DNA of 64,000 bases from Bacteroidales bacterium (lineage in GTDB: Bacteria; Bacteroidota; Bacteroidia; Bacteroidales; UBA932), in assembly GCA_017519865.1 (NCBI GenBank), contig JAFWRQ010000014.1:124001-188000 (forward strand). The letters run 5' to 3'. Below are positions 14,941 to 44,153 of the stretch, piece after piece (the first letter of the stretch is position 1; each line of letters starts with the position of its first letter). The notes under the pieces were generated by a model. The model searched no databases and had not been told where the DNA came from. It saw only the letters and a program-made list of their open reading frames with translations. A program made the position numbers and the translations under genes.

Positions 14941-15522
14941 ATGAAAAAGATTTTGACTCTCGTCCTTGCAGCGTTCCCTTGTGTATTGTTTGCGCAGATG
15001 CCCGGCTTTGATTTCTCCTCGATGCAGATGGACCTCCCTGAAGAGACCATCGTTTCCTATACTGACGGTATGGTTTCCGACTACGGCCTCGATGCCGACC
15101 AGGCCTCCAAGGTCCTGGAGATCAACAAGAAGTACCTTGGCAAACTCGAGTATCCCGTCGTCATGCCCCCGGCAGCCGAGGAGGCAATGAAGAATGCCGC
15201 GAACGGCCAGGCCGGCGCAGGCTTCGACCCAGCCAGCTTCTCCGCCGAGGACAGGGACAGGATGATGTCCATGATGAATGACATGCAGGACAGGATGAAT
15301 GATATCGCCGACAATCAGGAGGCATACGAGAATGCCCTCGCCAGCGTCCTCGACAAGAAGCAGATGAAGAAATGGCGCAAGGCCAAGAAGCACTATCAGA
15401 CCGACCAGCGCATCATGATGGAAGCCCAATTCGGCGGCATGGGCGGCTTTGGCGGCGGTTTCGGAGGTGACTTCGGCGGCTTCGGCGGCGGCATGGGCTT
15501 CGGTGGAGGCTTCGGATTCTAA
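14941..15522 (+). CDS. secreted protein with Gly/Phe-rich tail
   Basis: 193 residues; signal peptide 1-19 (ending FAQ). The middle part is helical and charged, with LDADQASKVLEINKKYL and a Met-rich stretch (MMSMMNDMQDRMND), reminiscent of DUF4890/Spy-like periplasmic proteins. The last 30 residues are almost only Gly, Phe and Met in repeats of GGFGG, which suggests a flexible or self-associating tail. Function unknown. It has its own terminator downstream, and the unit is bounded upstream by the terminator at 14879. Confidence 0.75.
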   Translation: MKKILTLVLAAFPCVLFAQMPGFDFSSMQMDLPEETIVSYTDGMVSDYGLDADQASKVLEINKKYLGKLEYPVVMPPAAEEAMKNAANGQAGAGFDPASFSAEDRDRMMSMMNDMQDRMNDIADNQEAYENALASVLDKKQMKKWRKAKKHYQTDQRIMMEAQFGGMGGFGGGFGGDFGGFGGGMGFGGGFGF

Positions 15523-16425: not shown

Positions 16426-18663
16426 CTACTGTTTCTTAAACAGTTCTCCTGCGAACTGTAGTGCTGAAGGAAGGGTTTCTCTCCAGAAGTCCCAGGTGTG
16501 TGCGCCGTCCCTTACACGGAATTGGTGAGGCAGGCCCGTTTCGCGGAGGGCCTTTATCACCTCGAAGTTGTCCAGGAGAAGGAAGTCATCGTCACCGATC
16601 TCCAGGAACAGGGCGGGAGCCCCCACGATATTACCTTCATCATCCTTCTCCCATTTTGCATCCCTCAGGATGTCGGGAATTGCGTGACTCCTTGAATATG
16701 CCTGCTCTGCGGCGGTCGGCTTGTCCCCGGCGCTCTGGAAAGTGAAGTTGCCTGTGGCAGCGCTCATTGCAAAACAAGCTCCGAAGAGGTCAGGTCTTTT
16801 AAGGGAATGATAGAGTGAACCATATCCTCCCATCGACAGGCCGGCTATGGCTCGGTGGTTCCGGTCACCGGCTATCCTATACTCTTTCTCGATGAAAGGC
16901 ATGAATTCCTTCAGGAAGAAATCCTCATACGGGGCCGTACCGTCAAAGGAGTTGACATAGGCGTGCCTGAAACCTTCAGGGCAGACGATGACCATCTCAG
17001 GTATCTGTCCGGAAGCCATGAGCCTGTCGGCAACCGAACTGAAGCGGGCGTCTTTCTGCCAGCTTCCATGGTCGCCACCTGCTCCGTGAAGGAGATAAAG
17101 GACGGGATACTTCTTTCCTGAGGTCTCAAATCCCTTGGGAAGATAAACGGTATAATGGACTGTCTTGCCGAGAAGTCGGCTCTCGATTGCACCGTCATTG
17201 TGGAAGCTGCCTTCCAACTGCGCTTCCTGCGGCCTGCGGCCCTGCTGGCTTCCTTGCTGCCCGCCGCCCCGCTGTCCGGGGACGCGGCCGCCCTGGGGTT
17301 CGTTCGGATAGCGGTCGATGGTGGCTGGCCCACCGGGAGAGAATGACAGTCCCTTTACGAATTCAATTTGGAAATCAGCGTCCTGCAGGCCAGTGAGGCG
17401 TTTACCACCGATATAGCAGTTCTCGAATGTGATGTCCTCCACGAATTTGGTCGGATGGCCTACAAGCGTAAAAGGCTTGACGGGATTGTCCCATCGGACG
17501 TTCTTCAGGTGGACCCCCTTGATGGACCCCATCTGGCCATTGCCGTAGCGTTCTCCTTCAGTAAGGATGATCTCGAGGTTCTTGTATTCGATATCGGATT
17601 CTACGCGAATGTCTTCGAAATATATGTCCCGGACCTCGGACGGGCCGTCGCAAACGATGCTGAATGCGGCGTGACCGCCGGTACGTCCGGAGCCGCGTGC
17701 CCGAAGGATGTCACAATCCTGCATTCTTATGTTCTCGACGATCCCTCCGTTTAGTTCGAAGCCCATCGTCATTCCGTCGGCGTGGTCCCATCCTACGAGA
17801 AGGCATCCTCTGATGGTCACGTCGCGGCAGCTGAGGTCGAAGTTGCCTGGATTGCCGTTGGCTTTTATGGCGATGCAGTCGTCACGTGTACGGATGAAGC
17901 AATCGTCGATGAGGAAGCCTTTGCTTGAAACGGGATTGATGCCGTCCAGGCCCCAGGTGCCAGTATGGGAGAAGACTTTGACATTGTGATAGACCGTGTT
18001 GAGGCTGTTGGTGACCGTATTTGTCCAGCCCCGTGTACTTCTCATGAATATTCCGTCAACGGTTAGGTTTTCGCATCCGTTGACGCTGAGGTTGCCACCG
18101 AGCGAGCCGCGGCCAAGGATCTTGACATTCTTTCCTGTGCCGTTGAAATTGCCGTTGACCAGCGCACCTCCGGCGATGTAGACTGTCATTCCATCCTCAA
18201 GGGTGATTCTTCCTGCATCATGGACTCCAGGACCGAAATATCGGACTCCCGGAGCATTTGGGGATGGAACTTCCGTTTCCAGCGGGTTGGCAAATATCGC
18301 CAGGTAAGGCCGGTCGTCTATCCTGATATACAGTTTGCCGGGCCCGTCGATCTTGAATGTCATCCTTTTTCCGTTGACTGAGGCCTTGATGCCGGCGCTT
18401 TTTGGCTGGATGGAATACGTGTTGATGGGAGATGAGGCCTCGATGGTGATTGTCTGTGGGCCGTCGCAGGAAAAGTTTGCTACGTGCAGGCCTTCCATCC
18501 CGTCAGGTCCCACTTGCTCGACCCATACAGGCTTTCCGCCTGCGACCAGGGAATAATCCGCACTGGTCTTCATACCCGGTATCATCGGGTATGTAACAAT
18601 ATTCTGGGCGTGCGCCGGAAGAACCAGTGCCGCGCCCAGAATAAACAGAACAAAGTTTTTCAT
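16426..18663 (-). CDS. pectin-lyase-fold glycosidase (GH49/GH28-like) fused to CE1 esterase
   Basis: 745 residues, signal peptide 1-19. Residues about 20-440 form a right-handed beta-helix with the acidic pairs of this clan (GLDGINPV, IRTRDDCIAIKANG, GWDHADGMTMG). In an alpha-glucan locus this suggests a GH49-type dextranase/isopullulanase; a GH28-like activity is the alternative. Residues about 456-483 are a Gln/Gly/Arg-rich linker (GQRGGGQQGSQQGRRP). Residues about 490-745 are an esterase-D/feruloyl-esterase-like alpha/beta hydrolase with oxyanion LYLLHGAGGD, nucleophile GLSMGG and His in DGAHTWDFW. Start 18663 (MKNFVLF). It is the last gene of the minus-strand PUL, 2 bp after the GH31 gene. 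Confidence 0.82.
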   Translation of the reverse strand: MKNFVLFILGAALVLPAHAQNIVTYPMIPGMKTSADYSLVAGGKPVWVEQVGPDGMEGLHVANFSCDGPQTITIEASSPINTYSIQPKSAGIKASVNGKRMTFKIDGPGKLYIRIDDRPYLAIFANPLETEVPSPNAPGVRYFGPGVHDAGRITLEDGMTVYIAGGALVNGNFNGTGKNVKILGRGSLGGNLSVNGCENLTVDGIFMRSTRGWTNTVTNSLNTVYHNVKVFSHTGTWGLDGINPVSSKGFLIDDCFIRTRDDCIAIKANGNPGNFDLSCRDVTIRGCLLVGWDHADGMTMGFELNGGIVENIRMQDCDILRARGSGRTGGHAAFSIVCDGPSEVRDIYFEDIRVESDIEYKNLEIILTEGERYGNGQMGSIKGVHLKNVRWDNPVKPFTLVGHPTKFVEDITFENCYIGGKRLTGLQDADFQIEFVKGLSFSPGGPATIDRYPNEPQGGRVPGQRGGGQQGSQQGRRPQEAQLEGSFHNDGAIESRLLGKTVHYTVYLPKGFETSGKKYPVLYLLHGAGGDHGSWQKDARFSSVADRLMASGQIPEMVIVCPEGFRHAYVNSFDGTAPYEDFFLKEFMPFIEKEYRIAGDRNHRAIAGLSMGGYGSLYHSLKRPDLFGACFAMSAATGNFTFQSAGDKPTAAEQAYSRSHAIPDILRDAKWEKDDEGNIVGAPALFLEIGDDDFLLLDNFEVIKALRETGLPHQFRVRDGAHTWDFWRETLPSALQFAGELFKKQ

Positions 18664-18665
18664 AA

Positions 18666-21053
18666 TCAATATTTTACTATAACTCTCGCTGGGGCGTTTG
18701 CAGGCTGGACAGGAAGTTTGATGCTTGCTTCCTGCTTGTTCGCATCCCACTTGCAATCCAATGCCTTGCCATCGAATGTCGCGGAAGGCTTGCGGGCAAG
18801 TCCGCCGATCACGATGGTCAGGTCACGGTCTGCCGTCATACCCTTGTACGAACCCTGACGGGCAGCGATGTCGACCGTGCAGCCGGAGCCTGTTGCCGTT
18901 TTGGTAATCAGCGTGGTGGCGTAGGAGTCGGGGTATGCCTGGCTAACCTCGTCATCCTCGTAGTGGGTGTAGCTGCTTTTCCCGGTACCGGGAGCTATGT
19001 AGATGCGAAGCGCATTGCTCTTCTCTTGGAGGTTCTGGATGCCTTCGGCTGCGAGCGGGATGATGGCTCCTGCCTTGACGAACCAGGCGATCTCTCCAAT
19101 CGTATACTTCAGGTCACGGGTCTGTCCACCCTTGAGCATCTGCTTGTGAGCCATATCGTACCAGTCGTTCCCGGCAGGGAGCCATACGGAACGGCCAGCC
19201 TTGCCCGTCAAGGAGTCCAGAGGCTCGCATACGGTCGCCGCAAGGATGTTGTCGCCGAAGAAATACTGCTCTTTCCAGTTGTATGCTTTCTCCTCTTCGG
19301 GGTACTCGTAATACATAGGACGGCAGAGGGAGACTCCGGTATCGTAGGCCTTGCGGGCCATATCATAGATGTATGGGCTAAGGGCATAGCGAAGTTCCAC
19401 GGCATCCCTCATATACTGATAGTGGTCTTCGAACGCCCAGAACCTGCGCTCTATGATGGCGGAGCTGGTGCAATGGGTCTTGAAGAGGGGAGAGAAAACG
19501 CCGTACTGGAGCCAGCGGGTATAGAGCTCGGGATCGGTAGGAATCTGGCCGCGTTGCATATGGCCGCCCAGGTCGTGTCCCCAGTATCCGTAGCCCACAT
19601 TGGAGGCCGTGGCGGTGAAATACGGCAGGTAGGCAAGGACTTCCCAAAGGATGTTGGTGTCTCCGGAGAAGCCGAGCTGGTAGCGGTGGCTGCCCAGGCC
19701 TCCCCAGCGGTGGTAGATCATCGGGCGTTCCGAATCCTCGGCGGGTTTGCCGCTGTTGCGGCGCACCTTGTCGTTGAAGAAGGTGTGGTTGAGCCAGAAA
19801 GTATTGCTGAGCCCGGGGACATAGTTGCTTTCCTTGTATTGCTGCCAGTCGAGCCACCAGAAGTCGACTCCCTGTTTCTCAAGCGGATGGAGTACGGAAT
19901 TGAAATAAGCGTCGGCCCAGGCGACCTGGTCCATACGGAAGGGAACGGGAGCGTGATAGCCCTTCTTGGCGATGTTGCCGTTGGCCTGCTGCTCGCCGCC
20001 CTTGTAGATATAGCCCTCCGGGCCGTCGTAGTCGTCCGTGCGGGAGAGGTAATCGGCCACGAAGGCCGGGTAGGCATCTTCGCGCTGGACGATTCCGGAA
20101 GCGGGATGGAGGTTGAGGGAAGTCTTGAGATGGAGTTCGTCGTGAAGTTCAGCAAGGAACGCCTCCGGATCATTGAAGAGGTCGCGGTTCCATGAATAAC
20201 CGGTCCAGCCGACGTTCTGGCCCACCTCATCGCGGCGGAGCCTGCGGCTAGTGGACTGCCATGTCTGATGCCAGTCCATATCGATCACCATTACGTCGAT
20301 GGGAATGCGGCGGTCGCGGAACTCCTTGCCCAGGGCCAGGAACTCCTCGTCGCTGTATGCCCAGTAGCGGCTCCACCAGTATCCGAAAACAAACTTGGGC
20401 GGCATGGGGATCTTGCCTGCAACCTTGGTGAAATCGGCCAGGGCGGTTTTGTAGTCGTGTCCGTAAGCGAAGATGTAAAGGTCCTGGACCTCACCTTCAG
20501 GACGTACGGATACCCACTCGCCCCAGTCGCTGTCGTCGGGAACGAAGAGGTGACGGGAACTCTCGTCTACGATGGCCCAGCCATCCCTGGAGAGGATGCC
20601 GAGTTCCATGGGGTCGTTGTTGTTGATATGGTTTGGCCCGGTGCAACCGTCCAAGGTGCGGGCCGTACCCATCAGGTTGCCCGTGGCTTCAAGGCCGGGA
20701 TGCCAGGTGACGGTCTTTCCATTCAGCTTGAAAGATACGGAAAGATTGTCCTCCGCGAATTTTCCGCCCTTGTAGGTCAATGTGACCGCGGAAGTGCGGA
20801 TGGTGGCACCGTCACCGCTCCTTGTGGCGGTGAACTTGGGAACGGGAAGATTGCGGTTGACTATGGCGAGGGTTGCGTGATCCTCGAAACGGCCGTTCTC
20901 TGACCATTCCATACGGATGAGCCTGTCGGTGAGCACGGTAAAACGAGCGTTGCCGACGACCACCTGTGCCTCTGCGGGGGCGACGGGGTCGTTTTTTGCC
21001 TGCCCCGTGAAGGCGGCAGCCAGAAGGGCCGCCAAAAGCAATATTCTCTTCAT
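18666..21053 (-). CDS. GH31 alpha-glucosidase family enzyme
   Basis: 795 residues; signal peptide 1-19 (ending GQA). The GH31 barrel starts near PPKFVFGYWWSRYWAYSDEE; IDVMVIDMDWH is the strand-beta3 motif. The nucleophile Asp is in DFWWLDWQQ, and the acid/base region is FSGDTNILWEVLAYLPYFTATASNVGYGYWGHDLGGH. A GH31 C-terminal beta-sandwich follows, with IYIAPGTGKSSYTHYEDD. It would release glucose (or another alpha-linked sugar) from oligosaccharide ends. It is the only secreted enzyme of this locus without a Gln/Gly-rich insert. 1-2 bp separate it from its neighbours, so it is in the operon. Confidence 0.9.
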   Translation of the reverse strand: MKRILLLAALLAAAFTGQAKNDPVAPAEAQVVVGNARFTVLTDRLIRMEWSENGRFEDHATLAIVNRNLPVPKFTATRSGDGATIRTSAVTLTYKGGKFAEDNLSVSFKLNGKTVTWHPGLEATGNLMGTARTLDGCTGPNHINNNDPMELGILSRDGWAIVDESSRHLFVPDDSDWGEWVSVRPEGEVQDLYIFAYGHDYKTALADFTKVAGKIPMPPKFVFGYWWSRYWAYSDEEFLALGKEFRDRRIPIDVMVIDMDWHQTWQSTSRRLRRDEVGQNVGWTGYSWNRDLFNDPEAFLAELHDELHLKTSLNLHPASGIVQREDAYPAFVADYLSRTDDYDGPEGYIYKGGEQQANGNIAKKGYHAPVPFRMDQVAWADAYFNSVLHPLEKQGVDFWWLDWQQYKESNYVPGLSNTFWLNHTFFNDKVRRNSGKPAEDSERPMIYHRWGGLGSHRYQLGFSGDTNILWEVLAYLPYFTATASNVGYGYWGHDLGGHMQRGQIPTDPELYTRWLQYGVFSPLFKTHCTSSAIIERRFWAFEDHYQYMRDAVELRYALSPYIYDMARKAYDTGVSLCRPMYYEYPEEEKAYNWKEQYFFGDNILAATVCEPLDSLTGKAGRSVWLPAGNDWYDMAHKQMLKGGQTRDLKYTIGEIAWFVKAGAIIPLAAEGIQNLQEKSNALRIYIAPGTGKSSYTHYEDDEVSQAYPDSYATTLITKTATGSGCTVDIAARQGSYKGMTADRDLTIVIGGLARKPSATFDGKALDCKWDANKQEASIKLPVQPANAPARVIVKY

Positions 21054-21054
21054 A

Positions 21055-23016
21055 TTATTTCTTGTATTCTATGACGATGGCTTCCATAGGTCCGACCTCG
21101 GTGTCGTTGGAGACCGTTACTTTCTCGCCGGTTATGACATTGGTGCCAGTACCCAACCCGTCGGTTATTTCGGAATAGTCGCTCCAGGGAATGTGTACAG
21201 CCTCATCAGAAGGATTGATGAACACGAAGACCGTGTCGGTGTCGTTGTATCGGAAATAGCCGTAACCGTTGCGTCCGGGAATGAAATGGAGGGTCTTTCC
21301 ATTATGGATAACTTCTGCGTCTTTACGCCACCTGAAAAGCTTGCGGCAATAGTCATAGACATCCTTGCGCATACCCTTCTCAATGGGCTGCCCGTCGAAA
21401 TCCACGTCGGCAGCGGCGCGTCCTTCATCGGTGAAGAAGTCGAATTCGTCACCTTCCCAGCCTCCCGGGAAGTCAACCCTCAGTCCTGGATCACCGGCAC
21501 GCAGGTCGGCCGATGAGAACATCATCTCGTCTCCGGAGAAGATCTGCAGGATGCCGCGGGCAGTGGCGAAGAAGGTCACCATCGCCTTGAAACGGGCCGG
21601 GTCCTTGCCCACGATGTCACCGACACGGCGGGTGTCGTGGTTGCTGGTGAAAATCATCAGATGGCTCAAGTCGTGGTAGAGGTAGTCCTGTGCCAGAACG
21701 TCATAAAGCGCCTTGGCGCTGGTACCGCCGCCACCTCGGCCGCCCTGACCGCCCTGCCTGCCGCCCTGCGGCGCGCCGAACACGGAATTGGCCGCGTTCA
21801 TGAGCGGGAAGTCCATTATGGACGGGAGGAAGGAGTTGAAGCCGTCGGAATTGGGGGCGTCCTTCTGCCAGTAAGCGATGGAGGCGGGAGAGCCGATCCA
21901 GCACTCGCCTACGATATTGAATCCGGGATACTCGTCCGTAACCGCCTTGCACCATTCTGCCATAGGATACTTCTCGTTGTAAGGATAAGTATCGACGCGG
22001 AATCCGTCCAGGTCGGAATACTCGATCCACCAGATGGCCCATTGCTTGAAATAATGGAGAAGATAAGGGTTGTCGAGATTCATGTCTACCATACCGCGGG
22101 TGAACCATCCGCTGTCCATCAGCATCGCATCGCGTTTTGAACCGTGCGGGTCGGACAAGGCGGAGAAAGCATAGTTGGACCCGGTATAGGACGGGAACTG
22201 GTGGATCCAGTCCTGGAAGGGGAGGTCAGTTGCCCACCAATGTGTGGTGGTGCCGCTGTGGTTGGTCACGATGTCCATTATGACCTTTAGATCCTTCTCG
22301 TGAGCCTTGGAGACGAATTCCTTGTAGAGGGCGTTGTCACCGTAGCGGGGGTCGATCTTGTAGTAGTCAGCTGCGGCGTAGCCATGATACGAGCCTCTCC
22401 TGTCGTTGTCGAGGAGGAGAGGGGTGTTCCATATGGCTGTGGCACCCAGGTCGGCGATGTAGTCCAGATGGTCTATGATGCCCTGTAGGTCACCTCCGTG
22501 GCGGCTTCCGATGGAAGAACGGTCAGCCTTTTCGTCAGTGTCGGGGGTGCTGTCGTTGGAGGGGTCTCCGTTGGCGAAACGGTCCGGCATGATGAGGTAG
22601 ATCAGGTCGGCAGTGGTGAAACTTGCCCTGTCGGCGGAGTTCTTGCGCCTTGAGGCAATCTCATACGGATACTTGAAGGAGTCTTTTCCCTTGGTGAAGA
22701 CCAGCCAGTAGGTTCCCGGCTTCGCCGAAGCGGGTACGTCGACGTCCACGAACAGATAGTTGGCGCTCTCGGCTTTGTTTACAGACTTGACCTTGACGCC
22801 GCTGCCACCCTCGATGCGTACATCCCAGGAGCTGATGTCGGGGCCGTTCACGAGCAGTTGGAGGGGACATTTCATCCCGGTCCACCAGGAGAGGGGTTCG
22901 ACGTGGGCCAAGGCGCCTTCCGGAGCGTCGGGAACGTCGGAGGGCTTGAAACCTGAGCAGGAGGCCAGTGCCGTAATAGACAGCACGGCGAGGAGGAGTA
23001 AGGATTTATGGTTCAT
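21055..23016 (-). CDS. GH13 alpha-amylase-type lipoprotein with N-terminal beta-sandwich
   Basis: 653 residues with a lipobox (ITALASC, Cys 20), so it is probably surface-exposed. Residues about 40-125 form a cyclomaltodextrinase-N-like domain (PLSWWTGMKCPLQLLVNGPDIS). The GH13 barrel follows: region I DIVTNH, nucleophile Asp in DGFRVDTYPY, acid Glu in NIVGECW, and transition-state Asp in FTSNHDT. This is the SusA/neopullulanase type of architecture. A Gly/Gln/Arg-rich insert (GGRQGGQGGRGGGG, about residues 412-434) interrupts the barrel before YDVLAQDYLYHD. All catalytic residues are present. The stop lies 1 bp before the GH31 start. Confidence 0.9.
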   Translation of the reverse strand: MNHKSLLLLAVLSITALASCSGFKPSDVPDAPEGALAHVEPLSWWTGMKCPLQLLVNGPDISSWDVRIEGGSGVKVKSVNKAESANYLFVDVDVPASAKPGTYWLVFTKGKDSFKYPYEIASRRKNSADRASFTTADLIYLIMPDRFANGDPSNDSTPDTDEKADRSSIGSRHGGDLQGIIDHLDYIADLGATAIWNTPLLLDNDRRGSYHGYAAADYYKIDPRYGDNALYKEFVSKAHEKDLKVIMDIVTNHSGTTTHWWATDLPFQDWIHQFPSYTGSNYAFSALSDPHGSKRDAMLMDSGWFTRGMVDMNLDNPYLLHYFKQWAIWWIEYSDLDGFRVDTYPYNEKYPMAEWCKAVTDEYPGFNIVGECWIGSPASIAYWQKDAPNSDGFNSFLPSIMDFPLMNAANSVFGAPQGGRQGGQGGRGGGGTSAKALYDVLAQDYLYHDLSHLMIFTSNHDTRRVGDIVGKDPARFKAMVTFFATARGILQIFSGDEMMFSSADLRAGDPGLRVDFPGGWEGDEFDFFTDEGRAAADVDFDGQPIEKGMRKDVYDYCRKLFRWRKDAEVIHNGKTLHFIPGRNGYGYFRYNDTDTVFVFINPSDEAVHIPWSDYSEITDGLGTGTNVITGEKVTVSNDTEVGPMEAIVIEYKK

Positions 23017-23021
23017 TCGTT

Positions 23022-24551
23022 CTATTTGTTATAACCGGCCAAATTGGCGATAATGGGTGCTATCTGGGTGTTGTCGGTCACCGGGATGAAGGCTTCCGCA
23101 CCACTGCCCGTAACATAAAGGCCTACTGGTGAACCGGTGTGGGCACCGTGGCTCCACTGGTAACCGGCGGTCCTGTTGAGATAACCGATCGCATCGGAAA
23201 CGAGGGTGGTGTTGATTGAGTAGAGGTTCTCGACATTGTTCTCGCGATTGCCGCCGGCGCCGAAAGTGCTGTCGTATATTGCCTTCAGGGAAGCCTCGGC
23301 GCGCCTGTCCACCGTAACGGTGGTCCAAAGCCCGAGATTGTCACTGAAGAAGTCTTTAACCTGGTCCCAGGTAGGGGGAGTGTATTCCTGCTGGGGCTGA
23401 GGCCCGCCTTGTCCCTGTGGACGGCTACCCTGTCCCTGCGGGCGCTGACCTCGTCCCTGTCCTTGCCCGCCTTGCTGGCGCGGTGGATAGAAAGCTTCGC
23501 GGAAGCGGGTGTTGACCGCATCCATCGACATTGTCTGCGTCGCCATCCTGTCAGGATGCATCTCGTACTGGCCGGAACCGAGTTCGAGGCCTCCTGTCTC
23601 GTGGTCGGCGGTGACTACGATGAGTGTCTCGTCCGGGTGAAGGTCCTTGAACGCAAGCACGACATCTATAGCCTCAGCAAAATCATTCACTTCCTGGAAG
23701 CAGGCGGCTCCGTCGTCGGCGTGTCCGCCGTTGTCGATCCTTCCACCTTCGATCATGAAGAAGAATCCCTTTTCACCATATTTCGCATCAAGATAGCGTA
23801 TGCCGGCCTCTACGAAGTCGGACAGTTTGGTGTCATCCTCTTTGCGGTCGATGGCATATGGCAGCTCTGTCTGGGCCTTGCCGCTGAGGCAGAGGACTCG
23901 TCCGGGAATGTTCTCTATGCCCTCGAACTGACCGGGTCCGCGCAGGATTCTGATGCCGGCTCCTCGGGCCTCGGTCTCGAAGAAAGCCGCATCGTGGCCG
24001 GTATTGCGCTCGGTTATGAAACCGGCACCGGCCGCGAAATCGACCGGAGCGTGGAGATATTGGAAAGCGATTTCTTCATAGCTGCCACGCTGGGCTGTAT
24101 GGGCGATGAAACAAGCCGGCGTCGCGTGATTGACTCCTACGTTGGTAGCGACGCCCGTACCGTATCCGGCATCTTTGGCCCATTCCACAAGGTTCGATAC
24201 GGAGTTTCCGTCCGCATCCACCCCGACGGCATTGTTGTAGGTTTTCACGCCTGTAGCGAGGGCTGTTCCTCCTGCTGCGGAGTCGGTCACGAGCGAAGTC
24301 GCAGATACCGTGGTGATGAAGTTCCTTACAGGGAAGTGTGCGAAATTGATCTCTTCTGGGCCGTACCCCGTGCCTGCGTTGTATTGCTCGGCACCGATAA
24401 CCTGGTTGATGCCCATTCCGTCACCGATCATATAGAAGACATACTTGACTTGGGGCTCCGCGGCTTTCTTCCTATTCCTGCGGGCGTCCGCTGGAACGAA
24501 AACGAGGAGCAGCAAGATGCTCAGTAAGGCGTATTTGAGGGTTCTTTTCAT
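23022..24551 (-). CDS. secreted alkaline phosphatase, PhoA family, in the PUL
   Basis: 509 residues; signal peptide 1-23 (ending ADA). It has the same motifs as the 4744 paralogue: MIGDGMG, VTDSAAGGTALATG with the nucleophile Ser, VNHATPA, TADHETGG and AHTGSP. Near residues 356-390 it has a Gln/Gly/Arg/Pro-rich stretch (GGQGQGRGQRPQGQG and more) exactly where the paralogue has a short loop before PTWEQVKAF. Its place between amylase genes, with 5-bp spacing to the upstream stop, argues for a role in the same pathway, for example removing phosphate from starch or glycogen phosphoesters (inference). Start 24551 (MKRTLK). Confidence 0.9.
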   Translation of the reverse strand: MKRTLKYALLSILLLLVFVPADARRNRKKAAEPQVKYVFYMIGDGMGINQVIGAEQYNAGTGYGPEEINFAHFPVRNFITTVSATSLVTDSAAGGTALATGVKTYNNAVGVDADGNSVSNLVEWAKDAGYGTGVATNVGVNHATPACFIAHTAQRGSYEEIAFQYLHAPVDFAAGAGFITERNTGHDAAFFETEARGAGIRILRGPGQFEGIENIPGRVLCLSGKAQTELPYAIDRKEDDTKLSDFVEAGIRYLDAKYGEKGFFFMIEGGRIDNGGHADDGAACFQEVNDFAEAIDVVLAFKDLHPDETLIVVTADHETGGLELGSGQYEMHPDRMATQTMSMDAVNTRFREAFYPPRQQGGQGQGRGQRPQGQGSRPQGQGGPQPQQEYTPPTWDQVKDFFSDNLGLWTTVTVDRRAEASLKAIYDSTFGAGGNRENNVENLYSINTTLVSDAIGYLNRTAGYQWSHGAHTGSPVGLYVTGSGAEAFIPVTDNTQIAPIIANLAGYNK

Positions 24552-24556
24552 AAATG

Positions 24557-27500
24557 TCACCTTTCAATGGTGGGGAATATGGTCAGGCGGAGAGTCGTGC
24601 TCCCGTAAGGTACAAGGTCGATGTACTGTACCTGGCCTTCGGTTTCGACCTTCTCCGGAAGTGCGGGGGTATACCTGTCTTCCTGCAATGTCCAGCCCTT
24701 GACGCTGACGACGGGGACACGGATCTTCATCGGGACCTTGTCCGGATCGAAGGGGAATCCTTGGGCGCCGGTGGTTTCTGCTTTGAGGCCGTCCAGGCGG
24801 TTGCGGACCAAAGCGTAGTTCCAGGGTCCTGCGGGAGTCATACTCCAACTTTTGAAATCTGGATTGGCCGACACCTTGCCGGCGAGGTTGGAGTAGATCT
24901 GGGAATCTTCCTCGACCTTTGCGGGGACGGCATAAGTGTAGACGATAGGACCGCGCTGAATCGAGGAGCCTGCGACGGGATTGTCTACGACCTCGATCTC
25001 CATAGGGAGGCTGACGGTGAAGCTGTCACCGCTGCGCCATTCCTTGCTGACAGTCTTGAATCCGGCCTTTTCGGCCTTGCACCATTCCGGTATCCTGTAT
25101 GTGAAATCCATATTGTACGCCTTGGAGGAGGGCTTTCCATTCTCGAAGAAACTGAACTCGAAGCGGACTTGCTCCTCGAAAGGATAAGAGGTTTTTTCCT
25201 CGATGCGGACAGTGACTCCGCCGCCGAGGTCGTACTCTACTGACGAAGGACCGTACAGAGCTGCCACCGGATTTCCTTTCTTGTCGCGCAGCCACATGCG
25301 GGCTACGTAGTTCGGCATATAGCGGTGGAGATTGCCTATACAGCACTCCGTCTCGTGGATTGGCCTATAGGCCATCCAGGTCAGGCCGTGCTTGAACCGG
25401 TTGTGATTGGAGTTGCCTGTTGCGATGACCTGATTGGGGCAGGAGAAATACTGCATCGACTTGAAATCCTTGGTGATGGAACCAAGGCCACCGTTGAAGA
25501 TGCCCTTTTCGATGCGGTCGGCCCAGCGGCCGTCGCCGGTAGTCATCAGATAATACCCCATTGTCCAGGTATAGTCGGACACGTCGCAGGTCTCGTGGCT
25601 GGCGAGCGGATCGTTGCCTGCCAGGGACTCGGATGAGGAGTTGATACCGTCGATGAGCATATTGGGACCCTCCATCTTTGCTTCCGCCTTAAGGGCGGCG
25701 TCCAGGTAGCGCTGTTCGCCTGTGTAGGCATAGAGCAGGAGAGGTATCTTCAGAAGTTCGTTCATCGTGACACCATGCATCGTGAACACCGTCTCGTCGA
25801 GAGCCGTGGTCTGGGTCATATCGGATGCCCCTTCTTCCCAGGCGCGCACCGCGTGGTCGAGGAGGTCGCGGTTGCCGGTGATGGAGTATGTCCAGAGCAT
25901 TCCTTCGACGTTTACGACAAAACGGTTCATTGCCAGTTCGTCGACAGTATAGGACAAGTAGTTCTTCTCGAGTGCCTCTGGGATGCGCGGATCACCTGTG
26001 GCCTCATAGTAAGCCTTGACTGCACGGAAGAAGACCGCCCAAGGCCAGGCCATCGAGCCGGTCTCGGGGCCCAGGCGTCCTTCCGGACGGTCGGCAGCGG
26101 CTATGCGCTGCTGGCGGGCACGGCGCTCCTGCTGCTCCGCAGCGCGCTGCTGCGCCCGCGGATCGGCCGAAACCTGGGCATTGAAGTCCTCTGCCTGGCG
26201 CTGGGGCCTTTGGCCTTCAACTCCCTGTGGAGGCCTCTGGCCCTGTCCGGCGGGAGTCGCATTCTGCCCTCCCTGGCCTCCGCGTCCGCGGCCACCCTGT
26301 TGTGCCGGCTCGGGCGGAGTGCCCTTCTGTGCCGGGAGAGGATGTGCAAGGACATAATCGATGTTTTGCTGCCAGATGTCGAGGAACTTTTTGTCGTCAA
26401 GCAAGAATCCGAGACGCGTAAGCCCGTCGAGATAATATGCGGTCTGTTCGAAGCGCCACCAGTCGGCACCCCTGGACTCGGAATCCCTTTCCAGCGTTCC
26501 CGCCCACAAAACGGAATTGTAAGGATACGCCATCGCCTCCGGATGGCCGGTGAGGCCGTCGCGCTGGCGCTCGAGTATCTCTTTGAGCCAGCCTTGGGGC
26601 TGGATCTTGTCTATCAGGCCTTCGGAGAATGCGGCATATGGTGCCGCCGGGATGCCGGAGCCTGAGGTTACCGTCATTTCGGGCGTGAAAAGATCGAAGA
26701 CATAGGTCCCGCGTGCAGGGACGTGCAGCTTGCCCACCATACTGTGGATCTCGCCGGTAATCACGTCCTTGCCTGCCGTGAAGTCACCGATGACGTCGCT
26801 ATAGCGTGACAGGTCGATGTCGACGTCACGGTCAGAGCCTCCGAGCACCACAAGGACTGTCTCGTCGTCTTTGATACGTGCATAGACATAGCAGTCGCCG
26901 TGCTCGCGCAGAGGTGCGTACTGGATGAGTTTGCCGCCGGCGATGGCCTTTGACCCCTTTCTCCATTGGAGGATCCTGTGCATATAGTCCCAGGCCTCGT
27001 TCTCCTCGGCGGTTCGGCCCTCGCGCGTGAAGACGCTGCGGGTGTCGCCGGGGAATCCGCCGGGCATATCGATGCGGATGGCGCCGTCTCCCTGCTGCTT
27101 CGTGGCTTTGAACAGAAGTTCGGTACCATAATACACCTGCGGAATGCCACGTGTAGTCAACAGGAAAGCTATGCCCTGCTTGTATCGGTTCAGACCCACG
27201 TCTTCCTTGCGAGAGAAGCGTCCGAGGTCGTGGTTGTCGAGGAACACGAGAATGTTGTCCGTATCGGCATAGAGGACATCGTTCGCCATCGACACGTAGA
27301 TGTTGAAGAGTCCTGTGGCTGCACCGTCGGCGGAATTGTTGGGCTGTGCGAATGCATCCGGAGCGAGGAACGCCAGGTTGAAGTCCATCACGGTCTTCAA
27401 GTAGGAGTTGTATGCGGGGTTGAGCGGGGAATCGTGCTGCCACCAGGCCGGGAATCCGCTTCCAAGGGGATACCAGGTTTCTCCGGTAATATTGAAATCA

Positions 27501-28546
27501 GGATATTCCTCCAGAGTTTCCTTGCACCAGCGGGCGCCGAAAATGGGATCCATATACGGATGCGTATCCTGCCTGACGCCGTCGATACGGGCGTATTCGA
27601 TCCACCAGATACAGTTCTGGATCAGATAGTCGGCGACGAGCGGATTGCGCTGGTTAAGGTCGGGCATTCCGCTGTTGAACCAGCCGTCGGTGAAAAGCTT
27701 GCGCTCGGACGGAGCCGCGTGTGGATCTACTGCAGTCCACTTGTTGTGGCTGGTCCCCACGAAGGTGTTGTTGAAATTGAGCCAGTCATCGGTGGGAAGG
27801 TCGCTCATCCACCAATGACCGCTGCCGCAGTGGTTGAAGATCATATCCATAACCACTTTCATCCCACGTGCATGGGTCTTGTCGACGAAGTCGATGTACT
27901 CCTCCATCGTTCCGAAACGGGGATCGATGTCGTAATAGTCGGTGATTGCGTAGCCGTGATAGGTGTTGGCTCCGTTTTTCTGTACCGGGTTGAGCCAGAT
28001 AGTGGTCATCCCAAGGTCCTGGATATAGTCCAGATGATCCAGGACGCCCTTGATGTCACCACCGTGGCGGCCTCCGTCGCGGGAACGGTCGGCCCTGGCA
28101 CCCTCGAGGGTGTTGTTGTCGGGGTTGCCGTCAGCGAAACGGTCGGGCGTGATCAGGTACAAAACGTCCTGGGGTCCGAATCCGAGCGCACCAGGCTTGC
28201 GGTTGCGTTCGCGGAGTTCGAAGGGCTGGACGGTTTTGCCGCCGGCCCCCGAGAATGTAATGTCCATCGTGCCCGGTCTGGCCTTGTCGGAGATGTCGAA
28301 ATAGAGGAAGAGATAGTTGGGATTGGAGGTTTTGACCACATCCTTGAGCGTAACCCCCCTGTAGTTGACGCTGACCTCGTTGGCGGAAATGCCGGGTCCG
28401 TGGACCATCACCTGCAGTGTGGTGTTCTTCATTCCCGTCCACCAGAAAGGCGGATCCATCTGCTGGATCTCCGCGGCAAGGACGCCGAAGCTTTGGGCCC
28501 AGAAGAGCCCAAAGCAACAGGCGACAGTCAATATGATCTTTTTCAT
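24557..28546 (-). CDS. GH13 amylase fused to DUF1680/GH127-like glycosidase
   Basis: 1,329 residues. The signal peptide ends near VLAA. Residues about 28-125 form a cyclomaltodextrinase-N-like domain (MDPPFWWTGMKNTTLQVMVHGPGIS). About 130-620 is a GH13 barrel with DMIFNHCG, nucleophile GVRQDTH, acid Glu ITGETWY and FLDNHDLG, all catalytic residues present. From about residue 650 a second enzyme begins (LIDKIQPQGWLKEILERQRDGL) and continues as a DUF1680 (beta-L-arabinofuranosidase-like) alpha/alpha toroid; the key Cys pair is at about 1068-1069 in HETECCIGNLHRYMP. An 80-residue Gln/Arg/Gly/Pro-rich insert lies at about 739-822. One continuous frame, start 28546 (MKKIILT). This domain pairing is unusual. 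Confidence 0.88.
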   Translation of the reverse strand: MKKIILTVACCFGLFWAQSFGVLAAEIQQMDPPFWWTGMKNTTLQVMVHGPGISANEVSVNYRGVTLKDVVKTSNPNYLFLYFDISDKARPGTMDITFSGAGGKTVQPFELRERNRKPGALGFGPQDVLYLITPDRFADGNPDNNTLEGARADRSRDGGRHGGDIKGVLDHLDYIQDLGMTTIWLNPVQKNGANTYHGYAITDYYDIDPRFGTMEEYIDFVDKTHARGMKVVMDMIFNHCGSGHWWMSDLPTDDWLNFNNTFVGTSHNKWTAVDPHAAPSERKLFTDGWFNSGMPDLNQRNPLVADYLIQNCIWWIEYARIDGVRQDTHPYMDPIFGARWCKETLEEYPDFNITGETWYPLGSGFPAWWQHDSPLNPAYNSYLKTVMDFNLAFLAPDAFAQPNNSADGAATGLFNIYVSMANDVLYADTDNILVFLDNHDLGRFSRKEDVGLNRYKQGIAFLLTTRGIPQVYYGTELLFKATKQQGDGAIRIDMPGGFPGDTRSVFTREGRTAEENEAWDYMHRILQWRKGSKAIAGGKLIQYAPLREHGDCYVYARIKDDETVLVVLGGSDRDVDIDLSRYSDVIGDFTAGKDVITGEIHSMVGKLHVPARGTYVFDLFTPEMTVTSGSGIPAAPYAAFSEGLIDKIQPQGWLKEILERQRDGLTGHPEAMAYPYNSVLWAGTLERDSESRGADWWRFEQTAYYLDGLTRLGFLLDDKKFLDIWQQNIDYVLAHPLPAQKGTPPEPAQQGGRGRGGQGGQNATPAGQGQRPPQGVEGQRPQRQAEDFNAQVSADPRAQQRAAEQQERRARQQRIAAADRPEGRLGPETGSMAWPWAVFFRAVKAYYEATGDPRIPEALEKNYLSYTVDELAMNRFVVNVEGMLWTYSITGNRDLLDHAVRAWEEGASDMTQTTALDETVFTMHGVTMNELLKIPLLLYAYTGEQRYLDAALKAEAKMEGPNMLIDGINSSSESLAGNDPLASHETCDVSDYTWTMGYYLMTTGDGRWADRIEKGIFNGGLGSITKDFKSMQYFSCPNQVIATGNSNHNRFKHGLTWMAYRPIHETECCIGNLHRYMPNYVARMWLRDKKGNPVAALYGPSSVEYDLGGGVTVRIEEKTSYPFEEQVRFEFSFFENGKPSSKAYNMDFTYRIPEWCKAEKAGFKTVSKEWRSGDSFTVSLPMEIEVVDNPVAGSSIQRGPIVYTYAVPAKVEEDSQIYSNLAGKVSANPDFKSWSMTPAGPWNYALVRNRLDGLKAETTGAQGFPFDPDKVPMKIRVPVVSVKGWTLQEDRYTPALPEKVETEGQVQYIDLVPYGSTTLRLTIFPTIER

Positions 28547-28560
28547 AGTATCTGTGATTA

Positions 28561-30582
28561 TCATTTGCTAAGGTCGAGCACGTATACTCCACGTGCTGGC
28601 ATTACTACGGGCGAAGTGACATCCACCACCTCTCCGGTGACCGCGTCCTTGCCTCTGGTGTAGTCCTTTATGACTTCGGAGAAACGCGACATATCCACGA
28701 TGCGGACGCTGTCCGAGCCGTTCAGCATTACCAGAACGGTGTTTTTCCCGTCCGTGCGGGCATATACGTAGCACTTGGTTTGATTGTCAGGCGTGTAGTG
28801 TATGAGTTTTCCCTCGGTCACCGGTTTGGAGTTACGGCGCCAGTTCAGGAGCTTGCTGGCGAAATCCCAGCACTCGTTCTGAAAATCGTTCCTGCCCTCT
28901 TTCGTGAAGCAATCTGCAGGATCCTCTTTCCAACCGCCCGGGAAGTCGGCGCGTCCGCCGCTGCGACCGGACATCGCAATTTCGGTACCGTAATAGATCT
29001 GCGGGATGCCACGTGTCGTCAGGAGAAATGCAAGGCCTTGTTTAAGTTTCCAGGCGGGATCGTCCGGATTCATGAATCGGTCGATGTCGTGGTTGTCCAG
29101 GAAGGTCAGAACGTGGTTCGGATCGGGGAAAAGGAAGTCCTGGGTGATGACCTCGTACATCTTGAAAAGGCCAGCCTCTGAACCTTCACTGGTATTGCTC
29201 TCCTTCATTATCTCACGCTGAGTAGTGAAGGTGAAGTCAAAGTCCATTACAGTCTTGAGGTGGGGGTCGTTGGCATTGACGGCAGATCCGCGTTGCCACC
29301 ATCCGGCGGCGGAGTTGCGTGGATACCAGCCTTCACCCACGATATTGAAGTCGGGATATTCCGCTTCGATCTCATCGCACCAGCGGACCATGAAGTCATA
29401 GTCGGCATAGGGGTAGGTGTCCATTCGGATACCGTCCACGCGGGCGTACTCGATCCACCAGATACTGTTCTGTATCAAGTATGTAGCCAGATGGCGGTTG
29501 CGCTGGTTGAGGTCGGGCATTCCGCCGGAGAACCAACCCTCGATCAGGATGTCCTTCTCGCTCTGGGGAGCGTGAGGGTCCATCAGAGTCCACTTGTAAT
29601 GGGTGGTAGTGACCAGTCCGCCGGGTTGGCGGACAGCCGAACGCAACAGGGCGTCCCTGGTCTCCTGGGGCAGTGCATTGAACTCATCGATGGTGGCGGG
29701 GAGTTGCACCTGCTGGCCGCGGCGCTGGCCGCCGCCCTGCTGGCCGCCGCCCTGCGGGCCCTGCGTCTGGCCCTGCTGGGCAGCACGCTGCCCTATGCTT
29801 CGGGCGTAGTCGTTCTGGTTGAACCAGTCATCGTCGGGAATATCCTCGATCCACCAGTGGCTGCTGCCTGAATGGTTGAAGATCATATCCATAACGACCT
29901 TGATGTCCTTCGCGTGCGCTGCGTCAATCATTTCGCAGTATTCTTCGTTCGAACCGAGCCTCGGGTCGATGAGGTAGAAGTCGGAAATGGCGTATCCGTG
30001 AGAAGCATTGCTCCTGTTGTACTGAACGGGATTGAGCCAGACGGCCGTCACGCCAAGTGCGTCGATGTAGTCGAGATGGTCCTTGATACCCTGAAGGTCT
30101 CCGCCATGATGCCCTCCGCCGTTCTGGCGGTTTACCGGGAAGTTCTCCCACTCGTCATTTGCGGGATTACCGTTGGAGAATCGGTCGGGCATAATGAGGT
30201 AGAGAACATCCTTGGAGGTGAAGCCCAGGGCGCCTTTCTTGGTGTTGCGTGGACGCAGTACGAAGTCTTTTACGGTAGTCTTCCGGCCCTCCTTGAACTG
30301 GAAGGTCATGGTGCCCGGACGCGCAGACGCCGAGATGTCCAGATATACGAACAGGTAGTTGGGGTTCTTGACCTTTGCGACCTCCTTGACTGATACTCCG
30401 GGATAGTCCTTGAGTGAGAACTCGCTCGCGGCAATGTCCTTGCCATAGAACATAACCTGAAGTTCGTGGTTCTTCATTCCGGCATACCAGAAGGGGGGAT
30501 CCATCCTCTGGATATCGGCCGCAAAGGAGGCTGTCCCGAGTGCAGCAAAGGCCAGGGCTGTCAGTAAATATTTGATTTTCAT
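28561..30582 (-). CDS. GH13 neopullulanase/SusA-like enzyme
   Basis: 673 residues; signal peptide 1-21 (ending SFAA), no lipobox, so periplasmic. N-terminal cyclomaltodextrinase-like domain (MDPPFWYAGMKNHELQVMFYG), then GH13: region I DMIFNHSG, nucleophile GIRMDTYPY, acid Glu NIVGEGWYP, FLDNHDID. It resembles the first half of the fused neighbour, suggesting duplication. In domain B about 65 extra residues, including QQGQTQGPQGGGQQGGGQRR (about 262-297), replace a short turn before HYKWTLMDPHAP. Its stop lies 14 bp before the fused gene's start. It probably cuts alpha-1,4 (and alpha-1,6) glucans to maltose or panose. Confidence 0.92.
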   Translation of the reverse strand: MKIKYLLTALAFAALGTASFAADIQRMDPPFWYAGMKNHELQVMFYGKDIAASEFSLKDYPGVSVKEVAKVKNPNYLFVYLDISASARPGTMTFQFKEGRKTTVKDFVLRPRNTKKGALGFTSKDVLYLIMPDRFSNGNPANDEWENFPVNRQNGGGHHGGDLQGIKDHLDYIDALGVTAVWLNPVQYNRSNASHGYAISDFYLIDPRLGSNEEYCEMIDAAHAKDIKVVMDMIFNHSGSSHWWIEDIPDDDWFNQNDYARSIGQRAAQQGQTQGPQGGGQQGGGQRRGQQVQLPATIDEFNALPQETRDALLRSAVRQPGGLVTTTHYKWTLMDPHAPQSEKDILIEGWFSGGMPDLNQRNRHLATYLIQNSIWWIEYARVDGIRMDTYPYADYDFMVRWCDEIEAEYPDFNIVGEGWYPRNSAAGWWQRGSAVNANDPHLKTVMDFDFTFTTQREIMKESNTSEGSEAGLFKMYEVITQDFLFPDPNHVLTFLDNHDIDRFMNPDDPAWKLKQGLAFLLTTRGIPQIYYGTEIAMSGRSGGRADFPGGWKEDPADCFTKEGRNDFQNECWDFASKLLNWRRNSKPVTEGKLIHYTPDNQTKCYVYARTDGKNTVLVMLNGSDSVRIVDMSRFSEVIKDYTRGKDAVTGEVVDVTSPVVMPARGVYVLDLSK

Positions 30583-30587
30583 TACTT

Positions 30588-32006
30588 TTATTTTACGATT
30601 ACATACTCGAAGGGACGGAGGAGCTCAGTCTCGCCAAAGGTCATGTTCCCGCCAGAGAGAAGGTCGGATACCTTGCGGCCCTGCCATCCTGCAGGGACCG
30701 GGGCGTTGACCTGGGTGTCCCTGAGGTTGACCATCACCAGCAGGGTCTCGCTCTCCTCGACGCGTTCGAAAATGAGCACGTCGTTATGAGGGTATGGTAC
30801 GAGGGAACCACGCCTGAGTGCGGGATGGGCTTTATAGAGGGCGATTAGGTCCTTGTAAGCCTGGACCATGCCGGGATTGGCGTCCCAATCCATTTCAGCG
30901 TAGTTGAAGAAGTTGATTTTGCCCGGATAGCCAATCTCCTGGCAGCTATAGACGAGGATGCCGCCGTGAATGAACGCAGTCGCCACGAAAGCGGCGATGG
31001 AACCGTCGTTGCCGAAGAACTCACGCACTGGAGACATCTTGACGTGTTCGTCGTGGTTAGTCGTGAAGCGGAGCTTGACCTTGCCTGCGGGCAGGCCTGC
31101 ATACTCGCTGGAGTCGGCTGCAAAGAGGCTGCTGACGGGCACCGTCCTGTTGACGGTGCGCGTGCGCACCTGGGGTTGCTGCTGCCCCTGCTGGCGATTG
31201 CCCTGGCGCTGGCCCTGTGCCCTCTGGGCCTGTGGTGCCGGTTGCTGGACGGTGACGGTCTCGCCGTTGAATACCCGGCGCAGTGCGGAAAGCCATCCCC
31301 AGGCATAGTTCAAGTCGAAGCCGGCCTCGAAATGGTCCTTACGCTGACCTTCGGCGAGCATAAGGAGAGGATGTCCCGTGGCGCGCAGCTGAGCGACACA
31401 GTCCTTCCAGAATTCGAATGGAACGTAGTCGGCAGCATCGCAGCGGAAGCCATCGACACCGACCTCTTCCACCCAGAACTTCATTGCGTCGATCATTGCC
31501 TGACACATTTCGGGATTGTCGAAGTTGAGATCGGCGACGTCGTTCCAACCGGTTCCCGCAGGATGGATGATCTCCCCATTCTCATCCTGCGTGTACCACT
31601 CAGGATTGTCCTTGATCCACTGGTTGTCCCAGGATGTGTGGTTGGCGACCCAGTCGATGATTACGGCCATACCCCTGGCGTGTGCGTGGGCTACAACCTC
31701 CTTGAAATCATCGAGCGTGCCGAATTCGGGATTGACGGCCTTGTAATCCTTAACGCAGTATGGGCTCTTGACGGCTTTTTCAATGCCTATTTCGCAAATG
31801 GGCATGAACCATACGACGTTGGTTCCCAGCTCGCTGATCGCATCGATGCGGGCGTTCACCGCCTTGAAGGAATTCTCAGGAGCGAAGTTACGTGGATTGA
31901 TCTGGTACATCACAACGTCTTCCGGAGCGGGGATGGTGACAGATGATATCTTGGCCGTGCAGGCTGAAGCCAGTACGGCGAGAAGGAGAATCAGACTTTT
32001 TTTCAT
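30588..32006 (-). CDS. GH13 alpha-amylase-like surface lipoprotein
   Basis: 472 residues with lipobox (VLASAC, Cys 16). The compact GH13 has region I IIDWVANHTSWDN, nucleophile Asp in DGFRCDAADYVP, acid Glu in LLMLAEGQ, and TTNHDEH. There is no N-terminal beta-sandwich, so it is a different subfamily from the other three. A Gln/Arg/Pro-rich stretch (QRAQGQRQGNRQQGQQQPQ, about residues 252-287) lies inside the barrel before the Asp of TTNHDE. It is the first enzyme gene after the LytS/LytTR pair, 18 bp downstream of the regulator stop, and precedes the other enzymes by 5 bp. Confidence 0.9.
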   Translation of the reverse strand: MKKSLILLLAVLASACTAKISSVTIPAPEDVVMYQINPRNFAPENSFKAVNARIDAISELGTNVVWFMPICEIGIEKAVKSPYCVKDYKAVNPEFGTLDDFKEVVAHAHARGMAVIIDWVANHTSWDNQWIKDNPEWYTQDENGEIIHPAGTGWNDVADLNFDNPEMCQAMIDAMKFWVEEVGVDGFRCDAADYVPFEFWKDCVAQLRATGHPLLMLAEGQRKDHFEAGFDLNYAWGWLSALRRVFNGETVTVQQPAPQAQRAQGQRQGNRQQGQQQPQVRTRTVNRTVPVSSLFAADSSEYAGLPAGKVKLRFTTNHDEHVKMSPVREFFGNDGSIAAFVATAFIHGGILVYSCQEIGYPGKINFFNYAEMDWDANPGMVQAYKDLIALYKAHPALRRGSLVPYPHNDVLIFERVEESETLLVMVNLRDTQVNAPVPAGWQGRKVSDLLSGGNMTFGETELLRPFEYVIVK

Positions 32007-32024: not shown

Positions 32025-32792
32025 CTATGCAAGCCACGCCATGAAGTCATTTACGCGCGAGCGTGCGACTATCATGTCGGTTTCCGGAGGGGGGTCCATA
32101 AGTATTTTCAAACGTCCTCCGTAGATTCGTTCAATGCCTTTGATGGCAAATGAGGAAATGATGTAGTTGCGCGAAATCCTGAAGAATACCTGCGGGTCCA
32201 GTTCGTCGAGAATAGACTCCATCTGATGGTCGAAGTAATACTTGGTGCCATCGTTTTTCACTATGTACTTGCTCTTGCCCTCTACGTAGAAGTAGGCTAC
32301 ATCAGAGGTCTCTATGGGGATGATCTTCTGTCCCAGTCGGACTATGAACCTACGCCTGTATGTCTTTCGGGTGGAGTCCCTGTCGTGGGCGAATCTCTGC
32401 ATCGTCGACAGGATGGCATTGATGTCGAAACTATCCGAACTTGCCCGGCAGCGGCTCACGGCCCGGAGCAGGGCCTCGTCATCAAATGGCTTGAGGAGAT
32501 AGTCAATGCTGCCCGCCTCGAAAGCCTTGACGGCATACTTGTCGTATGCGGTAGTCATAATGACCTTGGCCGTGATGGTCTCATGCTTGAAGATTTCGAA
32601 GCAGCTGCCATCCTGCAGTTCCACGTCCATGAATATAATGTCCGCGGTATTGCCCGGAGTGCGCAGCCATTCGAGCGTTCCCTTGACAGATTCGATCACG
32701 GCAACGACTTCGATGTCGGTGAAATTCCTGGTCAGTGCCCGTTTCAGGGTCTGCTGGGCAAGTATTTCGTCTTCTACGATAAGCGCTTTCAC
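32025..32792 (-). CDS. LytTR-type response regulator
   Basis: 255 residues. Receiver domain with E7/D8, phospho-acceptor D56 (IIFMDVEL), T in MTTAYD and K in LLKPFD; then a LytTR DNA-binding domain at about 150-250 (RRRFIVRLGQKIIPIETSDVAYFYVEGKSKYI... FFRISRNYIIS). It is the partner of the LytS-type kinase 6 bp upstream. LytTR regulators control several Bacteroidetes loci, but PULs are more often run by hybrid two-component, SARP-like or ECF/anti-sigma systems, so this pair inside an alpha-glucan PUL is notable. Likely target: the promoters in front of susC/susD and the enzyme operon. Confidence 0.93.
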   Translation of the reverse strand: MKALIVEDEILAQQTLKRALTRNFTDIEVVAVIESVKGTLEWLRTPGNTADIIFMDVELQDGSCFEIFKHETITAKVIMTTAYDKYAVKAFEAGSIDYLLKPFDDEALLRAVSRCRASSDSFDINAILSTMQRFAHDRDSTRKTYRRRFIVRLGQKIIPIETSDVAYFYVEGKSKYIVKNDGTKYYFDHQMESILDELDPQVFFRISRNYIISSFAIKGIERIYGGRLKILMDPPPETDMIVARSRVNDFMAWLA

Positions 32793-32798
32793 GGTCTC

Positions 32799-36001: not shown

Positions 36002-36037
36002 TTTGTTTTCGCTTAACATTGTTTCACGTGTGGCAGA

Positions 36038-38992: not shown

Positions 38993-39181
38993 GTGGATTT
39001 AGTTAATAAGTGTGTTTGAACGTAAAAGTAGTCGGACGTTACCATTATAAATATGAAACGTTTCAGTTTTTGGTGTGAGCGGTTAATAAATTGGCGTGAG
39101 CAGCATTTGCCCTATTTGATATGTGAAAAAAATGACCGGCGCAGAGGCGTCGGCCATTCATTGTATATGACAGGTTGAGGG

Positions 39182-41011: not shown

Positions 41012-41029
41012 TGTCTTAGGATTTAAGGG

Positions 41030-44044: not shown

Positions 44045-44153
44045 AAAACACATAAATACAATTGGTTATAAAAGTGGTTGGTCGCTGTAATCGCTGATTC
44101 CCGGGTGGTCAGTTCCGGCTATGACAGAGTGTCATTAAAGGGCTTAGTGAAGG

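Follow-up and report, generated by a model that had tools for sequence, protein, structure and literature searches.

Amylases of subfamily GH13_46 are marked by MPDLN in conserved region V, two tryptophans between regions V and II and an aromatic end of region II, according to their description (PMC9781549). The Flavobacterium cyclomaltodextrinase (1h3g) and Bacteroides thetaiotaomicron SusA (9fyz), both of this GH13_46/SusA type, have domains in common with three amylases, P6, P5 and P3, encoded in a 64-kb stretch of Bacteroidales DNA (positions 124,001 to 188,000 of contig JAFWRQ010000014.1, assembly GCA_017519865.1), the whole of which we call the window. The three belong to a run of seven consecutive enzyme genes, P1 to P7, that makes up one starch-type (alpha-glucan) operon on the minus strand (16426-32006). 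Here we report that six of the seven enzymes carry one stretch each that is rich in Gln, Gly, Arg and Pro; unlike P3 and P6, neither 9fyz nor 1h3g has such an insert in alignments to the operon amylases. Comparison with related sequences suggests that selection maintains the stretch and that it accompanies membership of the operon.

Gln/Gly/Arg/Pro-rich stretches in a starch-type operon

The Pfam domains of P1 to P7 are, in this order, GH28 with a CE1-type esterase, GH31, GH13, alkaline phosphatase, GH13 with GH127, GH13 and GH13, and the stretches lie in three GH13 barrels, the phosphatase, the GH127 half of the fusion and an inter-domain linker (all operon features are on the minus strand). 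P1 (16426-18756), a GH28-CE1 esterase fusion with a signal-peptide-like N-terminus, carries its stretch in the linker between the domains (17218-17316). In P3 (21055-23016), a GH13 lipoprotein that resembles SusA and cyclomaltodextrinases, the stretch (21718-21777) is located in the barrel between the motifs MDFPL and FTSNHD, which we take to be the helix-6 region, and the GH13 lipoprotein P7 (30588-32006) has its stretch (31158-31250) in the matching region of its barrel. The stretch of the alkaline phosphatase P4 (23022-24560) occupies positions 23388-23486 between TADHETGG and GAHTG, presumably the crown region. For P5 (24557-28564), a GH13-GH127 (DUF1680) fusion, the core (26195-26317, residues 750-790) stands ahead of the catalytic GH127 match, which Pfam places at residues 884-1085, and is followed by an Arg/Gln-rich segment reaching approximately 26080. 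The stretch of P6 (28561-30582), a SusA-like GH13 enzyme, comes after the DWFN motif (29704-29796), in what we assume to be the domain B region, and it is the only insert of the window with an excess of DNA repeats. The GH31 enzyme P2 (18666-21053) is the sole operon enzyme without a stretch. An earlier note, made from the letters of the window, had claimed Gln/Gly/Arg/Pro-rich inserts in six of seven enzymes, in unrelated folds (GH13 barrel, phosphatase, DUF1680 and linker) and with GH31 as the exception; the cores mapped within or beside the spans it gave, Pfam and motif placement agree on the folds, and no insert was found in GH31.

All four GH13 proteins contain the catalytic motifs that were sought (region-II Asp, GE or EG, and NHD). 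P4 is assigned to the PhoA-type alkaline phosphatases by a Pfam Alk_phosphatase match and by the motifs VTDSAAGGTA, TADHETGG and GAHTG, whose roles we presume. P6 is assigned to GH13_46, having MPDLN, WWIEY and DTYPY together with an N-terminal Cyc-maltodext_N domain and a C-terminal domain. The MPDLN and WW signatures, as given in PMC9781549, are found in both P6 and P5, and P3 has MVDMN in place of MPDLN.

Pooled, the 182 core residues of the inserts consist of 32% Gln, 29% Gly, 13% Arg and 12% Pro, with Ala, Val, Thr, Ser, Glu and Asn as the remainder, and contain no Asp, Lys, His, Ile, Leu, Phe, Trp, Tyr, Met or Cys. Both the ratio of Gln to His (58:0) and the absence of Lys go beyond what GC content alone explains. 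The pooled cores have a net charge of +20, whereas the remainder of the same proteins has about -3.5 per 100 residues; each stretch contributes +2 to +5, and the six whole enzymes range from -12 to -37. With this composition, the stretches are probably intrinsically disordered. They form one recurring element: each of the six polypeptides has a single Gln/Gly/Arg/Pro-rich stretch of positive charge, and these are found at several unrelated places.

The rarity of the element was determined with a strict threshold of at least 14 Gln, Gly, Arg or Pro in 20 residues, including at least three Gln, applied to gene calls whose counts are approximate because our own caller trims starts. The source assembly is unfinished and of metagenome type (75% complete, 37 contigs, 2.12 Mb), and our sample of it covered 590 kb (28%), the window included. 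In this sample 9 of 434 gene calls passed, namely six of the seven operon genes as against 3 of 427 others (Fisher p 6.5e-11): Rho, SSB and an alpha/beta-hydrolase esterase with a BD-FAE match. No gene call of the 64-kb window outside the operon passed. In a second genome (G181, 162-kb sample), 5 of 125 calls passed, four of them within the same operon; the fifth, in L208, is borderline and looks like ordinary sequence. Five other genomes of the genus (398 kb in 20 DNA pieces, three of them picked around GH13 homologs) gave one passing call in 296, a CE1-type esterase (L266) whose neighbours resemble genes for amino-acid biosynthesis. None of 646 calls passed in 1.03 Mb from 50 loci that surround homologous amylases of Bacteroides, Prevotella, Flavobacterium and others. 

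Two of the proteins outside the operon have further low-complexity features. The own-genome Rho (L063 9716-11527, plus strand) has a long low-complexity N-terminal region that is Ala/Lys/Pro/Glu-rich and then Gln/Asn/Pro-rich, and the alpha/beta-hydrolase (L152 8515-10374, plus strand) has one Gln/Pro-rich and one Ala/Pro-rich loop, with homologs that vary at both sites. A scan for DNA patterns of Gln, Gly, Arg and Pro codons was dropped for too many chance matches on test sequence. Six-frame protein probes made from the insert sequences do not amount to a sensitive census because few of the six inserts were recovered: the first found two (P4 and P7) and two weak places, the second only its own sources (P5 and P6) and one weak place.

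Next to these counts stands the recurrence of the element in relatives, which the earlier note had proposed to look for. For P3, P4, P5, P6 and P7, relatives have stretches in the corresponding loops, though sequence and length differ. By record titles, the close relatives of P6 stem mostly from rumen and hindgut metagenome assemblies. Under a looser threshold (13 of 20 residues, at least two Gln) applied to relatives at least 50% identical, a stretch was present in 19 of 23 relatives of P6, 6 of 10 of P7, 6 of 14 of P5, 8 of 16 of P3 and all three of P4; for GH31 the count was 0 of 11. None of the 83 relative proteins, those of P1 included, has two stretches. In the six P5 cases the stretch lies in the P6-like GH13 half four times and in the GH127 half twice. 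A P6-like GH13 appears to be fused to GH127 in L079, L081, L085, L088 and L096, with a stretch in the GH13 part of all but L096. The P1 stretch falls at a fusion point, the GH28 frame stopping there in all 13 relatives whose sequence extends that far; in one of these 13, G181 (L197 10939-13365, minus strand), GH28 and CE1 are two frames with a stop in the Gln-rich junction.

Measured from anchor to anchor, the loops of the three nearest genomes (G000, G181 and G326) span 47-52 residues in P7, 36-48 in P4, 66-81 in P6 and 87-137 in P5. A second group has shorter loops (17-27 in P7, 27-29 in P4), and distant P7 copies have 8-23 residues. Where P7 stands apart from P6 and P1 is the only operon gene seen nearby (G033, G198, G445 and G072), its loop contains at most one Gln, and a P3 paralog of the own genome outside the operon has no stretch. 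Of other families near the relatives' loci, 4 of 221 gene calls also pass the looser threshold; three of these are long minus-strand calls in L081, L086 and L106 that resemble wrong frames (the one in L106 overlaps a P3 homolog), and the fourth is in L088.

The insert cores are under purifying selection at the amino-acid level. In 29 disjoint ortholog pairs, their ratio of replacement to synonymous change (dN/dS) was 0.18, from 173.5 synonymous changes on 408 sites and 136.5 replacement changes on 1296 sites, compared with 0.074 for the rest of the same genes. The value was 0.21 in the 19 pairs with loops of equal length, in which alignment can hide little. These figures show constraint on the stretches, roughly two to three times weaker than on the remainder of the genes.

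Operon membership and the phosphatase stretch

The phosphatase offers the closest view of how the stretch relates to the operon. The P4 family is found in 70 of 400 genomes of the genus, at 76 places; with four from other families of the order this gave 80 distinct frames, and 79 after removal of L325, a fragment without the loop. Copies were assigned to the locus when operon genes lay next to them (for L169, in the longer piece L197). A stretch was found in seven of eight in-locus phosphatases but in none of the 71 others, for which up to about 1.5 kb or 4 kb of flank per side was seen, less at contig ends, so that a farther operon gene could be missed. The loops of these 71 have 4 to 15 residues, except two of 26 that are not Gln/Gly/Arg/Pro-rich. 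The window itself holds such a control, an alkaline phosphatase paralog outside the operon (4744-6201, plus strand) that is 56% identical to P4 and has a loop of 13-15 residues and no stretch.

With the loop excised, the seven stretch-bearing copies fall into two groups, one of G000, G181 and G326 and the other of G283, G375, G215 and G381. Well-supported branches force two changes, and a single change was seen in 0 of 200 bootstrap trees (35 copies). A single clade was rejected by the approximately unbiased (AU) test (p 3.35e-5, log-likelihood difference 43.5), which was run on the 35-copy set only and with the group defined by the insert. The parts before and after the loop each give two changes (AU p 0.075 and 0.0032, respectively) and thus no sign of recombination around the loop. 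In a quick 76-row tree, which has long branches and leaves out three of the 79 copies that span too little of the protein, the insert needed two changes and locus membership three. The gene also differs in its place in the operon: it follows P5 in G000 and G326, stands at the end in G181 and, in the second group, is flanked by P5 and GH31. In the sequenced parts seen of the related operons L076 and L078, no phosphatase was found.

Since the seven copies stand on two branches, the stretch seems to have arisen more than once as the gene entered the locus, or to have disappeared more than once as the gene left it; loss on leaving would tie it to the locus as well. The plain reading of these trees would be at least two recruitments, each with the gain of a like stretch in the same loop. 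Judged by these sequences, the phosphatase stretch is tied to membership of the alpha-glucan operon. Together with the recurrence in relatives and the purifying selection on the cores, the two-branch pattern supports the earlier note's suggestion of a shared property selected in this locus.

Possible roles of the stretches

We tentatively favor, at somewhat less than even confidence, the reading that the stretches cluster or tether the operon enzymes or bind them to an anionic polymer of the envelope. As sticky spacers, the stretches would bind the acidic bodies of partner enzymes, each other or an anionic cell-envelope polymer through many weak contacts, and no folded scaffold would be needed to hold the operon enzymes close together. 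Composition, charge and presence would then be what selection retains, not exact sequence or length. What such spacers need is matched by a single stretch per polypeptide, unrelated places, kept charge and composition and free length.

Several observations weigh against this reading. GH31, although in the same operon, has no stretch, and the P1 stretch was found in 0 of 6 relatives at the looser threshold. P6 retains its stretch in several loci whose flanks (up to 10 kb) yielded none of the other operon genes, similar loops occur in esterases outside the operon (L152 and L266), and the in-locus phosphatase L286 (genome G432) has a loop of 12 residues only. Lipoprotein-like and signal-peptide-I-like enzymes, by N-termini read by eye, carry stretches alike, so the partners may occupy different compartments. 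No acidic low-complexity partner turned up in the window's operon and Sus genes, where Asp and Glu together reach at most 8 in 20 residues. Across the proteins within a genome, length and composition do covary (overall p 0.0005 and 0.002), but as a single clade-level shift (0.07 and 0.70 within clades); coordinated lengthening between the enzymes was rejected as a candidate, since it reduces to this one shift. For the phosphatase, the AU test was done after a quick tree had already been seen, the N-terminal part alone is not significant, and a count of two gains presupposes that losses do not happen much more readily than gains. The earlier note had held that inserts scattered at random in unrelated secreted proteins would speak against a shared property. 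For the most part they are not so scattered, being rare elsewhere in the sample, yet the two outside esterases have them and the solitary P6 keeps its own.

Because of the outside esterases, the solitary P6, L286, P1, GH31 and the clade-level covariation, our preference for clustering stays below even, and a substantial, if lesser, possibility is that the stretches reflect low-complexity growth that is tolerated. In this genus, the loops of secreted hydrolases would then drift to GC-rich, disordered sequence that is weakly filtered for solubility and has no dedicated function. The esterase loops outside the locus, the variable length of the stretches, a constraint looser than that on the folded parts (0.18 vs 0.07) and the recent DNA repeats in the P6 of the window all fit such drift. 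It is harder to reconcile with purifying selection on the cores, with the rarity of stretches elsewhere in the genome sample and with the in-locus bias of the phosphatase on two branches, and Gln without His and Arg without Lys are not derivable from GC content.

A local function, in which each stretch acts beside the active site of the enzyme that carries it, as a lid or as an element that holds substrate or gives stability, is improbable in our view. The P6 stretch comes after the DWFN motif and that of P4 is flanked by conserved metal-site motifs, regions that we take to border the active sites in these folds. The sites in the P1 linker and ahead of the P5 GH127 match have no common relation to an active site, there is no Trp or Tyr for sugar stacking, and homologs without a stretch exist. 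A local catalytic role would also hardly account for a single stretch at unrelated places with free length.

The earlier note had also offered codon-repeat expansion, and ongoing slippage of this kind at the DNA level now looks very improbable. Fresh repeats should leave the DNA more repetitive than the amino acids require. Compared with random synonymous codons, excess DNA repeats were detected in only 1 of 55 loops at p<=0.01 and 2 of 55 at p<=0.05 (own-genome loops included). Among the window inserts, P6 alone exceeds the expectation, with 15 repeated 9-mers vs 1.4 expected; the other five show no excess, DNA words common to the six inserts are no more frequent than expected, and the codons of the inserts are diversified. 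An assembly or frame artefact, for which the unfinished metagenome-type assembly might speak, is practically dismissed by the open frames and by the same loops in several separately assembled genomes.

A bolder form of the clustering reading, in which the stretch is an operon-wide tag, we consider unlikely, though it deserves mention. In this genus, enzymes that join the alpha-glucan operon would acquire, separately, one Arg/Gln-rich disordered stretch at any permissive loop, and the secreted enzymes would assemble into a scaffold-free envelope cluster or condensate, like a distributed cellulosome.

Neighbouring genes and comparison with known systems

The operon is adjoined by genes for a LytTR response regulator and a histidine kinase (32025-33950, minus strand), and the locus further includes two SusD and two SusC-type genes (34052-44065, minus strand). 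One SusC-type gene (41027-44065, minus strand) is interrupted by a single in-frame stop at 42107-42109, with Pfam domains in both pieces; the stop may be a true inactivation or an assembly error. Also adjoining the operon is a gene for a DUF4890 protein (14941-15522, plus strand) with a Gly/Phe/Met-rich C-terminal tail, a different kind of low complexity. The right part of the window contains long tandem repeats (53837-54099 and 61279-61580, with units of 102 bp and 81 bp).

The locus has an adjacent SusC/SusD pair and glycan enzymes, by which we class it as a Sus-type polysaccharide utilization locus (PUL), and it resembles such loci in its SusC, SusD, GH13 and GH31 proteins. To our knowledge, the LytTR/histidine-kinase pair, the phosphatase, GH28-CE1, GH127 and the stretches are additions relative to the classical Sus operon. 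How the many enzymes of a PUL stay together without a scaffold is, as far as we know, an open question. A full-text literature search on disorder, low complexity and assembly in such enzymes, with most subscription papers beyond its reach, returned no description of such inserts in PUL enzymes in titles or the beginnings of abstracts.

Disordered low-complexity regions of bacteria are best known from the cytosol; if co-operonic enzymes do have a selected disordered tag in common, such regions would gain a role in secreted enzymes, and assembly would become directly testable. A disordered region of Bacteroides Rho is reported to drive condensation (PMC13269538). Like the enzymes studied here, with their probably disordered stretches, that Rho is a conserved protein with a low-complexity insert, and the Rho of the own genome has a Gln/Pro-rich stretch. 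By analogy, it may serve as a precedent within the phylum, but it is cytosolic and RNA-dependent, whereas the stretches described here are carried by six different secreted-type enzymes of one operon.

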